Positions 9,720-15,062 of a stretch of DNA of 28,114 nucleotides are shown here, piece after piece. Position 1 is the first letter of the stretch. Each line of letters starts with the position of its first letter. The translations under genes were made by a program, and so were the position numbers. The notes below the pieces were generated by a model. It was not told the origin of the DNA, did not search any database, and saw nothing but the letters and a program-made list of their open reading frames with translations. Source of the stretch: a virus; the IMG/VR virus record IMGVR_UViG_3300013100_000025, positions 1 through 28,114 of that record; one strand, given 5' to 3'.

Positions 9720-10343
9720 ATGAACAGGCCAATGCCTCCAGAGTCGCTACTCAAGCTGTCTGAGCTTTCCAGCTTCGGTATTCGCCTGATCCCAGCGCCC
9801 GAGGTGTGGGAGTGGCTCAAAACCGAGATCCTCGCCGATACCGGCAGCATCCACAACGAAGAACACGCCCATCTGATCGATGCAGACATTCGTGTGATGT
9901 GGGCATCTGCCGCCTTCACGAAGAAGGGGCGGACGGTGGTGGGCCAGGCCGAACAGGTCGCGTTCCGTGCTGGCGGTTGGCAGAAAGCCAGAATGGAACA
10001 GCAGATGATGGATTGGTTCGGCGACGTGCCGGCCTACATCATCACTCTGGCTGCCGACTACTGCGCCCAGTGTAGCGACGCTGACTTCTGCGCACTGGTC
10101 GAGCACGAGCTCTATCACATTGCTCAAGCGACCGATCAGTACGGCGCGCCCAAGTTCACCCAGGAAGGATTGCCCAGGCTTGAGATGCGCGGACACGACG
10201 TTGAAGAGTTTGTCGGTGTTGTCCGCCGCTACGGTGCAAGCCCGGCAGTTCAAGAGCTGGTGGACGCTGCAAACAATCCTGCCGAGGTGGGGAAACTGAA
10301 CATTTCGAGGGCCTGCGGAACCTGTCTGCTCAAGTCGGCCTGA
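9720..10343 (+). CDS. Putative phage metallopeptidase (HExxH)
   Basis: A 207-aa protein of the phage putative metallopeptidase family. HELYH at 129-133 (VEHELYHIAQ) is the zinc site with catalytic Glu130; EMRGHDVEEF (His159, Glu162, Glu163) may supply the third ligand. The protein is cytosolic, with no signal peptide. AAGGTGA lies 4 nt before ATG 9720. It is typically found just upstream of the terminase small subunit, as here. Its substrate is unknown. Confidence 0.8.
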   Translation: MNRPMPPESLLKLSELSSFGIRLIPAPEVWEWLKTEILADTGSIHNEEHAHLIDADIRVMWASAAFTKKGRTVVGQAEQVAFRAGGWQKARMEQQMMDWFGDVPAYIITLAADYCAQCSDADFCALVEHELYHIAQATDQYGAPKFTQEGLPRLEMRGHDVEEFVGVVRRYGASPAVQELVDAANNPAEVGKLNISRACGTCLLKSA

Positions 10344-10374: not shown

Positions 10375-10896
10375 ATGGCAGCCCTGAGCAGCGAGGTGAA
10401 GGCCTTCATCGTTCAGGCGTTGGCCTGCTTCGACACACCCTCCCAGGTGGCAGAGGCCGTCAAGCGCGAATTCAACATCGATGTGACCCGCCAGCAGGTG
10501 GAGACGCACGACCCGACCAAACGATGCAGCAAGACACTCGCCAAGCGCTGGGTGGAGATGTTTCACGACGCCCGAAAGCGATTCAGGGAGGAGACGGTAG
10601 ACATCCCGATCGCCAACCGTGCCTTTCGGCTGCGCGCCATGAGCAGGTACGTCGAGAAGGCCGAGTCGATGAAAAATATCAGTCTCGCGATGCAAATACT
10701 CGAGCAGGCGGCAAAGGAAGTTGGCGACGCATACGTCAATCGCCGCGTAGAGCCAGACAAGTCGCTGGACGACGAGATCAAGCGGCTCAACATCCAAAAG
10801 CTGCAGCGCGAATTGGAAGACCCGAATAAGGGCCTGCCCGAGCCCAAGCAAGTAATCATCGGGGTAGAAGATGCAAGCGACCCTGAAGCTGAATAA
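10375..10896 (+). CDS. terS: Terminase small subunit (DUF2280)
   Basis: A 173-aa protein of the DUF2280 type. The N-terminal part (SEVKAFIVQALACFDTPSQVAEAVKREFNIDVTRQQVETHDPTK) is an HTH-like DNA-recognition domain; the centre is helical oligomerisation sequence; the acidic C-terminus would contact TerL. It overlaps terL by 26 bp. It would recognise the packaging site, which I could not locate. RBS is weak (GGA about 12 nt upstream). Confidence 0.85.
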   Translation: MAALSSEVKAFIVQALACFDTPSQVAEAVKREFNIDVTRQQVETHDPTKRCSKTLAKRWVEMFHDARKRFREETVDIPIANRAFRLRAMSRYVEKAESMKNISLAMQILEQAAKEVGDAYVNRRVEPDKSLDDEIKRLNIQKLQRELEDPNKGLPEPKQVIIGVEDASDPEAE

Positions 10897-12151
10897 GCCG
10901 CAGTTCGAGTTCATCAGCCACCCCAAGAAGTTTTCAGCGTTCGTCGGCGGCTACCGAAGCGGCAAGACGTTCGTGGGCTGCGTCCGGATGTGCATCAACG
11001 CACTGGAGCACCCAGGCATTCCGCAGGGCTACTTCGCGCCGACCTATCCGCAGATCGCGGACATCTTTTACGACACCATGCCGGTGGTGGCTGAGGCATT
11101 TGGCCTGTTCGCCGACATCGTGCCGAGCAAGAAGCGCGTCTATCTGCGCGACAACCGGGGCCGGTGCCTATCGACCATTGTCTGCAAGAGCATGGAGCAC
11201 CCGCACCGCATCGTCGGCTTCAACATCGCTCACGCACTGGTCGACGAGATCGACTGCATGGCGATCAAGAAGGCGGACAGCGCGTGGAAAAAGATCATCG
11301 CGCGTATGTCCACGGTGTGGCCGACCCGCGCCATGAACACCATCGACGTCACCACGACGCCGGAGGGCTTCAACTGGGTCTATCGCAAGTTCGTCAAGGA
11401 GCTGGCTGCCAACCCGAGCCAGCGCCCGCTGTACGGCATCGTGCATGCCTCCACGCGGCAGAACGCGAAGAACCTGCCGAAGGACTACATCAAGTCGCTG
11501 CGAGAGTCGTACCCGGCCAACTTGGTGGACGCCTACATCGACGGCCTGTTCGTCAACCTGACGTCGGGCAGCGTGTATCCGAACTTCTGCCGTAAGCAGA
11601 ACCACACCGACGCAACGATCCGTCCAGGCGAACAGCTGCATATCGGCATGGACTTCAACATCAACCGGATGGCCGCGACGGTGCATGTCATTCGTGACGG
11701 CCTGCCGCTGCTGCTGGAGGAGGCCACGCACCTGTTCGACACGCCGGCGATGATCAAAGAGCTGAAGCGCCGGTTCCCCGGCCACAGCATCACGGTTTAC
11801 CCGGACGCCAGCGGCAAGAACCGCAAGAGCGTCAGCGGCAGCGAGTCGGATCACAGCCTGCTCCGCGCCGCCGGCTTCATGGTCATGGTGAACCCGTCGA
11901 ACCCAGCGGTTCGTGATCGGGTGCTGGCGGTGAACGCCATGCTCCTGAACATCGACCAGAAGCGCCGCTACCTGATCAACACCGACAACTGTCCGGTCAC
12001 TACTCAGGTGCTGGAGCAGCAGGCCTACGACGACAAAGGCGAACCCAACAAGGACGGCACTGAAGACCCGGTCGACGCGGTCGGTTACTTCATTGTCCAG
12101 CGCTTCCCGATTGCGGGCAGCTACACACTCGCGAACGTGAGCGACCAATGA
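10871..12151 (+). CDS. terL: Terminase large subunit
   Basis: A 426-aa packaging motor. Walker A GYRSGKT is at 27-33 and Walker B HALVDEID at 121-128. The C-terminal RNase H-like nuclease carries Asp261 (HIGMDFNI), Asp312 (VYPDASG) and Asp399/402 (EDPVDAV). It pumps DNA into the procapsid through the portal encoded next and cuts concatemers. Length is normal. The start overlaps terS, and the stop overlaps the portal start (ATGA). Confidence 0.95.
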   Translation: MQATLKLNKPQFEFISHPKKFSAFVGGYRSGKTFVGCVRMCINALEHPGIPQGYFAPTYPQIADIFYDTMPVVAEAFGLFADIVPSKKRVYLRDNRGRCLSTIVCKSMEHPHRIVGFNIAHALVDEIDCMAIKKADSAWKKIIARMSTVWPTRAMNTIDVTTTPEGFNWVYRKFVKELAANPSQRPLYGIVHASTRQNAKNLPKDYIKSLRESYPANLVDAYIDGLFVNLTSGSVYPNFCRKQNHTDATIRPGEQLHIGMDFNINRMAATVHVIRDGLPLLLEEATHLFDTPAMIKELKRRFPGHSITVYPDASGKNRKSVSGSESDHSLLRAAGFMVMVNPSNPAVRDRVLAVNAMLLNIDQKRRYLINTDNCPVTTQVLEQQAYDDKGEPNKDGTEDPVDAVGYFIVQRFPIAGSYTLANVSDQ

Positions 12152-13938
12152 GCGCATTCACTTATCTGAAAGACAGCCTGCAGAACCTGGTCGCAGGACT
12201 GGGCACTGCGCGCGACAAGGCATCGCATTCGCACTATGCGCTCCCGGTTATGGACGACCAGCAGCTGCTGAACGCCTTTCGTGGATCGTGGACGGCGCAG
12301 AAGGGCGTGAGCATCCCGGCCGTTGATGCGTGCCGCAACTGGCGCAACTGGCAGGCCGACAAGGCTCAGATCGAGCTGATCGAAGCCGAAGAGGATCGCC
12401 TCAACGTCAAGGGCAAGATTCTGGAGGCCCTATTGAAGGCCCGTCTGTTCGGCGGCGCTGCGGTGTTCATCGGTACCGGTGAGCGCGACACAGCGTCAGA
12501 GCTGAAACCGGATCGGATCGGCAAGGGTGGCATCAAGTACCTGACGGTGATGACTCGCCGCCAACTCAGCGCCACCGAGATCGAGCAGGATCCGCAGAGC
12601 CCGCGCTTCGGCAAGCCGAAGTCCTACCGGTTGCCGGGTTCGACGGTGGAGATTCACCCGTCGCGCCTGGTCATCTTCGTCGGTGTGCCGCATCCAGATC
12701 CCGAGCTTGCCGTGGGCACCGGCTTCGGCTGGGGTGACTCGGTGCTGCTATCTGCAATGCCGGCTGTGCGTCACTACGACGAGACGGTCGCCAACGTGGT
12801 CAGCCTGGTCTACGAGGCAAAGATCGACGTCATCAACATTCCCAATCTGATGTCGAGCATGCAGGACAAGAACTACGAGCGCCTGCTCCTGGAGCGCTTG
12901 CGTCTTGCTGCCACGGCCAAGGGCATCAACGGAACGCTGATCCTGGACGGGCAGGAGACACACACCTCGAAGTCAGCCAGCTTCGGCACGCTGCCGGACG
13001 TGATCGCCAAGACAGAGCAGGGTGTGGCTGGCGCGTTCGATATCCCCGGAACCCGCATGTTTGGTCAGTCCTCGACCGGGCTGGGCGCCAATGGCGAAGA
13101 GAACACCCGCAACTACTACGACAACGTCGCCTCACGCCAGAAGCTGGAGATCAAGCCGGCCATGAGCGTGCTGGACGAGGGGTTGATCCGCTCTGCACTG
13201 GGCAGCAGGCCCAAAGAGATCCACTACACCTGGTCGCCGCTATGGCAGGCCACGGCGAAAGAGCGGGCCGATATCGGCAAGACCACAGCGGACACCATCA
13301 AGGCGCTGAAAGACTCCGGACTTTTCCCTGAGGATGCGCTCTCGACCGCCGCGGTGAATCTGCTGGTCGAGCTGAGCGTTATGCCGGGCCTGGAAGCGGC
13401 GATCGAGAAGTTCGGCGACGAGCTGCCCGATGACGACGATGACCTGCCGAGCACTGGGCCTGATCAGCCAGTGTCGAAGAAGGCCATCACTGACGCAGCG
13501 CCACGCTCGCTGTATGTGTCCCGAAAGGTCATCAACGGCGCTGAGATCATCGCGTGGGCCAAGTCGCAGGGCTTCGAATCCACCGTCCCAACTGCTGACT
13601 TGCACGTCACCGTCGCCTACAGCCGCAACCCGGTCGATTGGATGAAGGTCGGCGAGTCATGGTCGGGCGATGGCAAGGGCCAGCTCAAGATTGCACCAGG
13701 TGGCGCAAGGCTGATCGACAAGTTCGGCGAAGACGCAGTGGTGCTGCTGTTCAACAGCTCGGAGCTGGCTTGGCGGCACGTCACCATCGTTGAGGCTGGC
13801 GCCTCTTGGGACTGGCCGGACTATCAGCCCCACATCACCTTCACCTACGAACCCGGCAGCGTCGATATCGACAAGGTCGAGCCATACCGTGGCGCGATTG
13901 AGCTGGGTCCCGAGATCTTCGAGGAGCTCGCCCCATGA
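12148..13938 (+). CDS. Portal protein with C-terminal Acb1-like (anti-CBASS) 2H phosphodiesterase domain
   Basis: A 596-aa fusion. Residues 1 to about 420 form a DUF1073-type portal, the dodecameric ring at the DNA entry vertex. An acidic linker (residues 424-440, with five consecutive Asp) leads to a domain of about 145 residues starting SLYVSRKVINGAEIIAWAKS. It carries two HxT motifs, LHVTVAYS (His486, Thr488) and PHITFTY (His562, Thr564), the catalytic signature of 2H phosphodiesterases, with the sequence style of phage T4 Acb1, which degrades CBASS cyclic nucleotides. No internal start with an RBS was found for the domain alone, so it is probably made as part of the portal. CBASS antagonism by this protein is inferred. 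Confidence 0.9.
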   Translation: MSAFTYLKDSLQNLVAGLGTARDKASHSHYALPVMDDQQLLNAFRGSWTAQKGVSIPAVDACRNWRNWQADKAQIELIEAEEDRLNVKGKILEALLKARLFGGAAVFIGTGERDTASELKPDRIGKGGIKYLTVMTRRQLSATEIEQDPQSPRFGKPKSYRLPGSTVEIHPSRLVIFVGVPHPDPELAVGTGFGWGDSVLLSAMPAVRHYDETVANVVSLVYEAKIDVINIPNLMSSMQDKNYERLLLERLRLAATAKGINGTLILDGQETHTSKSASFGTLPDVIAKTEQGVAGAFDIPGTRMFGQSSTGLGANGEENTRNYYDNVASRQKLEIKPAMSVLDEGLIRSALGSRPKEIHYTWSPLWQATAKERADIGKTTADTIKALKDSGLFPEDALSTAAVNLLVELSVMPGLEAAIEKFGDELPDDDDDLPSTGPDQPVSKKAITDAAPRSLYVSRKVINGAEIIAWAKSQGFESTVPTADLHVTVAYSRNPVDWMKVGESWSGDGKGQLKIAPGGARLIDKFGEDAVVLLFNSSELAWRHVTIVEAGASWDWPDYQPHITFTYEPGSVDIDKVEPYRGAIELGPEIFEELAP

Positions 13939-15062
13939 TCTTCACCGACTCCGTGCCAGTCACGGGAGTGCGGCGCACTGAGGACGGCTATCTGGTTGGA
14001 GAGGCCAGGGTCGCCCGCACCGGCATTCAGGACTACCTAGGAACCGAGATTGATCCTGATAACGAACACGGCCTGAGGGACCTGCCAATCGTTCGCGTGT
14101 ACCGACCGGAGAGCGCGGTATTTCACAAAGATGCGATGCACTCCTACGCGTACCGACCAATGACCAACGGTCACCCGGGCGGCGAAGGCGTCACTTCCAA
14201 GAACTGGAAGGATGTCGCGATCGGCAACACCGGCGGCGAGGTTGTTCGGGACGGGCAGTTCGTCAAGGTACCGCTGGTGCTGATGGATGCCAAGGCGATT
14301 GAGGACTACGAGTCAGGCAAGCGCGAACTGTCCATGGGGTACGGCGCTGAAGTCGTTTTCCAGGATGGTGTTACGCCAGAAGGCGAGGCGTATCACGCCT
14401 ATCTCGGGCCCATGAAAATGAATCACCTCAGTCTTGAGTATCGCGCTCGCGGCGGCGAAAAACTTCGCTTTGGTGACAACGAACCACACACCCCCCAAGG
14501 AGGCCATGACATGGCTGATTCACTGCGTACGGTCATCGTTGATGGCCTGTCCGTCCAGACGACCGACCAAGGCGCCCAGGCAATCGACAAGCTGACCAAG
14601 CAGCTGGCCGATGCCGGGGTAAACATCAAATCCCTGACCGACGCGCATACCGCTGCGCTGGCGCTGAAGGATGGCGAACTGGCGAAGAAAGACGCCGAGA
14701 TCGACGACCTGAAAGCCAAGCTGCTCAGCGATGCCGATATCGACAAGCGAGTCACCGCCCGCGCCGACCTGATCAGCAAGGCCAAGTCGATCGCTGACGC
14801 CGACTACACCGGCAAGACCGACGCTGACATCCGCAAGGCTGTCGTGGTCGCCAAGTTGGGTGATGCGGCCGTGGCCGGCAAGGCTGATGCCTACATCGAC
14901 GCGCGCTTCGAGATCTTGGTCGAGGACGCTGCCAAGAACCCGGCCAATGACCCGTTCCGGCAGCACATGATCCATCAGGACAGTAAGCCAGGCGAAAACC
15001 CGGCTGAAGCCGCCCGCGCGAAGATGCTGGCCGACTTCAACTCCACTCAGCCCGCCAAGTAA
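13935..15062 (+). CDS. DUF2213 prohead protease-scaffold fusion
   Basis: A 375-aa protein. The N-terminal DUF2213 domain (about 1-185) has candidate catalytic residues His80 (TNGHP), Ser133 (RELSMGYG) and the NHLSLEYRARGG segment at His174. The C-terminal half (about 193-375) is highly helical and charged, like a scaffold (AIDKLTKQLADAGVNIKSL ... KKDAEIDDLKAKLL). It would direct procapsid assembly and then cleave the scaffold. It overlaps the portal by ATGA. An internal start gives the scaffold alone. Confidence 0.85.
   Translation: MIFTDSVPVTGVRRTEDGYLVGEARVARTGIQDYLGTEIDPDNEHGLRDLPIVRVYRPESAVFHKDAMHSYAYRPMTNGHPGGEGVTSKNWKDVAIGNTGGEVVRDGQFVKVPLVLMDAKAIEDYESGKRELSMGYGAEVVFQDGVTPEGEAYHAYLGPMKMNHLSLEYRARGGEKLRFGDNEPHTPQGGHDMADSLRTVIVDGLSVQTTDQGAQAIDKLTKQLADAGVNIKSLTDAHTAALALKDGELAKKDAEIDDLKAKLLSDADIDKRVTARADLISKAKSIADADYTGKTDADIRKAVVVAKLGDAAVAGKADAYIDARFEILVEDAAKNPANDPFRQHMIHQDSKPGENPAEAARAKMLADFNSTQPAK
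14511..15062 (+). CDS. Nested scaffold protein (internal start of the protease gene)
   Basis: ATG 14511 is in frame with the protease gene (residue 193) and preceded by AAGGAGG with 7-nt spacing, one of the best ribosome sites in the window. The 183-aa product MADSLRTV... is the helical scaffold half. This parallels lambda C/Nu3, where scaffold is made from an internal start of the protease gene. Separate expression is inferred from the RBS. Confidence 0.7.
   Translation: MADSLRTVIVDGLSVQTTDQGAQAIDKLTKQLADAGVNIKSLTDAHTAALALKDGELAKKDAEIDDLKAKLLSDADIDKRVTARADLISKAKSIADADYTGKTDADIRKAVVVAKLGDAAVAGKADAYIDARFEILVEDAAKNPANDPFRQHMIHQDSKPGENPAEAARAKMLADFNSTQPAK

Follow-up and report, generated by a model that had tools for sequence, protein, structure and literature searches.

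Acb1 is an anti-CBASS enzyme whose chemistry and role were described by Hobbs et al. 2022 (PMC9117128). All nine homologues tested in that study cleaved cGAMP and cAAA, a set that may or may not include a portal-fused member; the word 'portal' is absent from the main text of the paper. In the T4 enzyme, W147 lies in a lid closing over the ligand, and substitution of nucleotide-coordinating residues disrupts the protein (Hobbs et al. 2022, PMC9117128). Fusions of 2H domains to MuF or portal proteins, with a possible use against nucleotide-activated immunity, were reported by Iyer et al. 2017 (PMC5512222), who also offered an RNase role as an option. Iyer et al. 2022 (PMC9503650) restated the proposal for SMODS and CRISPR signals, together with packaging and injection. 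Our full-text search of open-licence papers returned none joining Acb1 to portals experimentally.

Here we describe a 28-kb virus record (the window, 28,114 nucleotides) in which an Acb1-type domain is fused to the portal protein. This kind of fusion was already predicted in 2017 and 2022, and the window is a further member. An earlier note on this DNA had called the role of the fused enzyme in the phage cycle unsettled, which is right, but the idea itself is not new (PMC5512222, PMC9503650). New here are the placement of the domain in Acb1 by curated profile and by fold, its fusion to prohead proteases, its clean presence or absence among portals, and the missing lid. Two points, the missing lid and the absence of the domain from near-identical portals, do not appear in the earlier note.

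Results

The portal gene carries an Acb1-type domain

Gene content, Pfam and PHROG profiles and relatives place the window as a temperate, siphovirus-like phage near Pseudomonas phage phiPSA1. Its genes include a CI-like S24 repressor and a lambda-type tape measure, and the head genes run in the order terminase, portal, protease, cement, capsid. Positions 9720-10343, ahead of the DUF2280 and terminase genes, encode a PhageMetallopep (PF18894) protein which PHROGs labels a transposase. The features surrounding and making up the portal are as follows.

10871..12151, plus strand: terminase large subunit, upstream of the portal (PF03237 and PF17289)
12148-13938, plus strand: portal gene, 596 aa, frame open throughout (ORF check)
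12259..13302, plus strand: portal core, residues 38-385, Pfam PF06381 Phage_portal_3 (DUF1073), E 6e-92
13420..13491, plus strand: acidic and flexible linker (residues 425-448; DDDDD at 428-432; pLDDT <50 in the full-length model)
13507..13929, plus strand: Acb1 domain PF23474, residues 454-594, E 1.9e-43, best fold matches 7t26/7t27
13935..13938, plus strand: ATGA overlap of the portal stop and protease start, read from the sequence
13935..15062, plus strand: DUF2213 / head maturation protease with a C-terminal scaffold-like region (PF09979 E 9e-42; phrog_530 E 4e-103)

The portal core scores 308 bits against PF06381 (cut-off 33.8) and 251.6 bits against TIGR01555, the HI1409-type portal model (cut-off 196.25). 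Similarly, the Acb1 profile PF23474 matches at 148 bits against a 27-bit cut-off, covering profile positions 2-137 of 144. By phmmer, the PDB matches include the Pam3 portal (E 2.5e-39) and FBB1 Acb1 (E 5e-11). Searches of the window portal against PADLOC and NCBIfam gave no Acb1 match, so that annotation relying only on those collections overlooks the domain. In our first viral search, the Acb1 domain of all 80 loci either was fused in-frame to a portal or lay in a reading frame that ran into the contig end. The proposals of the earlier note that the portal frame continues into an Acb1-like domain from nucleotide 13501 (codon 452), that five aspartates precede it, that two HxT motifs lie within it and that a protease gene adjoins it all proved correct.

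To place the fold, which the earlier note had named as a check, we used two AlphaFold models. The domain-only model (15-row alignment, moderate pLDDT of 74.6, pTM 0.72) is closest to FBB1 Acb1 7t26, with an E-value of 4.7e-8 and a target-normalised TM-score (TMt) of 0.80; 7t27 also ranks ahead of every LigT structure, the best of which reaches E 5.6e-5 and TMt 0.50. In the full-length model (36 rows, pLDDT 80.2) the linker at 425-448 is disordered, the best match is the Pam3 portal 8hds (E 6e-33), and a separate match to 7t26 has TMt 0.81. On profile, tetrad, fold and selection, we are confident that the C-terminal third of the window portal is an Acb1-type 2H domain.

The fold search with the Acb1 domain model returned no 8hds match. 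The deposited Pam3 portal chain has 621 residues with the Acb1 domain at 462-609, and 442 of the 621 are modelled. Thus, in the Pam3 virion the domain is mobile, cut off, or unmodelled, and mere mobility may account for the residues missing from the model. Of the results here, this gap alone touches on whether virions contain the domain. In the E217 portal, the C-terminal barrel points into the head (PMC10329688).

The catalytic tetrad is intact and the lid is missing

We aligned the domain with T4 Acb1 and with the tails of sister phages, and the following features were located.

13603..13611, plus strand: first HxT motif, H486-V-T488, aligned with T4 Acb1 H44/T46
13831..13839, plus strand: second HxT motif, H562-I-T564, aligned with T4 Acb1 H113/T115
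13921..13923, plus strand: E592, opposite T4 E141 (adenine contact) in the alignment, in a column that is glutamate in only 93 of 164 sequences
13930..13938, plus strand: truncated C-terminus, ending ..EELAP and stop, in which the lid segment with T4 W147 is absent relative to sister tails

Two T4 aromatic positions have counterparts in the window domain, Y12 aligning with Y456 and F107 with W556. T4 W74 falls opposite D524 in an uncertain part of the alignment and has no clear counterpart. The portal-Acb1 proteins of sister phages end ..EEVVENWKDSIREA or similar, and the close sisters L030, L036, L037, L038, L093 and L167 retain a tail of about 10 residues with the tryptophan. The lidless window protein ends where its stop codon and the protease start codon overlap (ATGA). 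The C-terminal lid is a feature of T4 and FBB1 Acb1 which the PF23474 profile does not demand, and 36 of 164 aligned family sequences have neither W nor Y at the lid position, indicating that lidless members are not rare. Judged from the sequences, the window's clade lacks the lid and has retained the tetrad under purifying selection. Because the lid is missing, the activity of the window copy may differ; we predict that it is probably catalytically active.

Selection has maintained the domain

Comparisons with close relatives gave dN/dS values for the Acb1 part mostly between 0.05 and 0.17, like those of the portal part. Against distant relatives, Acb1 dN is below portal dN (for example, 0.21 versus 0.34). 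Scans that use HxT patterns bias catalytic conservation, so our conservation claim relies on 96 distinct domain sequences from loci fetched without such patterns. The tetrad is intact in all 96 (HTHT 93, HTHS 4, window included). In the larger alignment of 164 sequences (163 clusters plus the window), 162 have HTHT or HTHS, and the catalytic columns belong to the best-conserved positions in the domain. One catalytic histidine is replaced in each of two clusters, L172 (H to Y in the first motif) and L179 (H to N in the second), which are possibly decayed. These substitution patterns indicate that the Acb1 domain of the window portal is under purifying selection.

The domain behaves as a swappable cassette

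When only the portal part served as query, 61 portal frames with Acb1 and 19 without were recovered, one of the latter being cut by a contig end. Seven Acb1-less loci (L189, L190, L198-L200, L202 and L232) have portals 92–95% identical to that of the window, and these near-identical portals finish in an acidic tail of the same type, followed by the protease. The DNA of L189 and L200 is 80–93% identical to the window on either side of a gap spanning the Acb1 domain. Thus, the Acb1 domain is a swappable cassette, cleanly present or absent among near-identical portals with both flanks conserved.

Two relatives also differ from the window unevenly along the gene. In L007 the domain is closer (0.92–0.98) than the 600 bases upstream (0.85–0.93) or the downstream flank (0.84–0.85), and in L036 the domain (0.77–0.82) is more distant than the upstream flank (0.87–0.95), a pattern indicative of domain exchange among phages. 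Among 200 Pseudomonas species genomes, DUF1073 portal frames occur 3 times with Acb1 and 12 times without. All five Acb1 matches over cut-off in these 200 genomes and 289 alphaproteobacterial genomes are on portals.

Linker and junction signatures

The earlier note had drawn attention to the acidic linker. It is present and disordered, but it is nothing special, in that Acb1-less relatives also finish in an equivalent acidic tail. A more constant element directly precedes the fold.

13492..13506, plus strand: DAAPR junction, residues 449-453, directly before the Acb1 fold, conserved in DUF1073-portal fusions

In about 109 DUF1073-portal fusions, D occurs 107 times at the junction and A and P 104 times each, and the linker positions upstream vary. 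The motif before the fold is specific to the portal class, with DAxPR in DUF1073, SFAAxDPR in Mu-type and acidic..K(S/A) in HK97-type portals. The DAAPR junction may serve as a processing site or may cap the fold. We also considered DAAP as a self-cleavage site of the DUF2213 protease and rejected this, since DAxP occurs in only 1 of 60 DUF2213 proteases.

The HK97 protease cuts after a lysine. At the HK97-type loci L308, L141, L348, L170 and L155, the acidic..K-(S/A) linker of the portal resembles the capsid delta-domain boundary of the same genome, and the acidic..K signature is found in only 3 of 108 DUF1073 linkers. This sequence resemblance is a lead, rather than evidence, for putative proteolytic release in HK97-type relatives that is not transferable to the DUF2213 protease of the window.

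Acb1 is fused to a range of head proteins

In order to survey fusion partners, we gathered Acb1 domains into 163 clusters at 85% identity. The partners include 115 DUF1073 portals, 12 HK97-type portals (PF04860), 9 Mu-type portals and 11 proteases. Architectures other than the DUF1073 portal-Acb1 form include the following.

L308, L155: Acb1 on HK97-type portals (PF04860)
L178, L347: Acb1 on Portal_Mu
L174, L177/L261: Acb1 on a DUF2213 protease
L173: Acb1 on Peptidase_S78
L289: Acb1 on an XkdF protease
L179: NUDIX-Acb1-XkdF
L263: portal-Acb1-MuF
L266:4273-7554: portal-Acb1-ADP-ribosyltransferase, a 1094-aa DUF1073 portal with Acb1 at 577-718, then the ADP-ribosyltransferase at 753-916
L416:5917-7656: a single 580-aa frame combining Acb1 with an Alt-like RNA polymerase ADP-ribosyltransferase (phrog_802)
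L182, L184/L412: Acb1 on large polyvalent proteins
L271: Acb1 on an SLT giant

In these examples Acb1 stands after the portal domain in portals and before the protease domain in proteases, and in three portal classes (DUF1073, HK97-type and Mu-type) it occupies the same, C-terminal end. The L266 protein places two effector domains on a single portal. The neighbours of the L416 gene have no PHROG match, leaving its location in a head module unproven. In Edwardsiella phage ZHS an Acb1-family gene stands by itself between those for terminase and portal (L004:2116-2715); it is annotated as a prohead protease and has no Pfam protease match.

Taken together, the partners of Acb1 are proteins of the head interior, or proteins known or predicted to be ejected. 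We also attempted to count independent fusions from a tree of the domain, which gave at least 19 partner-class changes among 10 labels, yet most inner branches are weak and we therefore claim no count.

CBASS in host genomes

We asked how often hosts encode a CBASS-type SMODS domain. It was found over cut-off in 12 of 50 lysogen genomes (24%), compared with 11 of 289 Alphaproteobacteria (3.8%) and 18 of 200 Pseudomonas (9%), with Fisher p values against the lysogens of 1e-5 and 0.007, respectively. Pseudomonas with an Acb1-less DUF1073 portal had SMODS at a comparable rate, in 2 of 11 genomes (18%; p 1.0), and genome size, taxonomy and prophage load are confounders. Because of this control and these confounders, the co-occurrence is not used as support.

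Discussion

The earlier note had set late-only presence, procapsid display and protease release side by side as candidate roles of the fusion. Our preferred reading is that the fused domain is cargo carried in the head, and we judge it, as a whole explanation, to have a probability of roughly 0.5. The observations it starts from are the fusion, the tetrad, the fold, the selection, the cassette behavior and the partner range. The C-terminal third of the portal would act as an Acb1-type 2H phosphodiesterase whose two HxT motifs would cleave cyclic di- and trinucleotides, presumably the CBASS alarm. A flexible tether joins the enzyme to the portal end that probably faces the head interior. Made together with the head genes and incorporated in procapsids, the enzyme would be head cargo, either freed by the neighbouring maturation protease or left tethered, and would get into the next cell together with the DNA or shortly afterwards. 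Additional cytosolic action on late-infection alarm nucleotides may also occur. Within this reading, head-carried delivery of Acb1 is held tentatively, at slightly under even odds. The narrower proposal that the maturation protease cuts Acb1 from its tether in the procapsid, followed by injection with the DNA, is doubtful; if true, the phage would have an enzyme that degrades alarm nucleotides ahead of all phage gene expression.

The strongest alternative, a serious though minority possibility, is that the domain acts only late and in the cytosol, on free portal monomers or procapsids, with the fusion securing co-expression and no delivery taking place. Portals and proteases are late products, the ATGA overlap links the portal gene to the protease gene within the head module, and a stand-alone Acb1-family gene can also be placed between those for terminase and portal, as in phage ZHS. 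However, a fusion is unnecessary for co-expression, the domain has the same C-terminal placement in three portal classes, and its fusions with the Alt-like ADP-ribosyltransferase, polyvalent proteins and the SLT giant point to head cargo. This partner range is the main reason that we infer head carriage rather than mere late timing, and it favours carriage inside the head in agreement with the published prediction (PMC5512222, PMC9503650).

Alternatively, the fold may have been kept for another substrate, as in other 2H enzymes, such as 2',3'-cyclic phosphate RNA ends or 2'-5' oligoadenylate-like signals. The RNase option of Iyer et al. 2017, the weaker matches to LigT structures, and the failure to find either the lid or more than two of the four T4 aromatic stacking residues in the window domain would be consistent with this. 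It is nevertheless improbable, given that PF23474 scores far over cut-off, that E-values are far better for the Acb1 crystal structures than for LigT, and that nine of nine homologues cleaved both cGAMP and cAAA (PMC9117128; a set that need not include a portal-fused form). Least probable is a catalytically idle appendage aiding assembly or DNA packaging, for which the 12 copies expected of a dodecameric portal, the strong conservation and the lost catalytic histidine in 2 of 163 clusters (L172, L179) could be cited, but against which stand the near-identical portals without Acb1, the highly conserved catalytic columns and the absence of the domain from the Pam3 virion model.

The fusion places a family of immune antagonists with proven biochemistry at the DNA gate of the virion, and does so in the form of a cassette whose gain or loss leaves the portal unharmed. 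Natural phage pairs with and without the cassette, whose portals are 92–95% identical, permit a direct comparison of a putative disarming of CBASS at entry with action late in infection.

Comparison with known systems

The window domain shares the 2H fold and HxT/HxT tetrad of Acb1 from T4 (gp57B) and Erwinia phage FBB1 (7t26/7t27), and with the T4 enzyme also the Y12 and F107 stacking positions and a glutamate in line with E141. In contrast to T4 Acb1, which is a separate gene, it is portal-fused and lacks the W147 lid and a clear W74 counterpart. With the 2H-portal and 2H-MuF fusions of Iyer et al. it shares the architecture and the predicted role, namely a packaged and injected factor against nucleotide-signalled immunity. 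The Pam3 portal (8hds, from a Pseudanabaena phage) resembles the window protein over its whole length, portal and Acb1 included (E 4e-159), but its second motif is HxS and its Acb1 domain lies outside the solved virion portal model. The closest counterparts are in Pseudomonas phages phiPSA1, MR15, psageK9 and PSA-2T, which have the same fused protein with a 90% identical domain, annotated as DUF1073, portal or hypothetical protein. PSA-2T differs in that a 57-aa gene, absent from the window, separates portal and protease (L002:3062-3235); the label of this gene, DNA ligase, is probably wrong.
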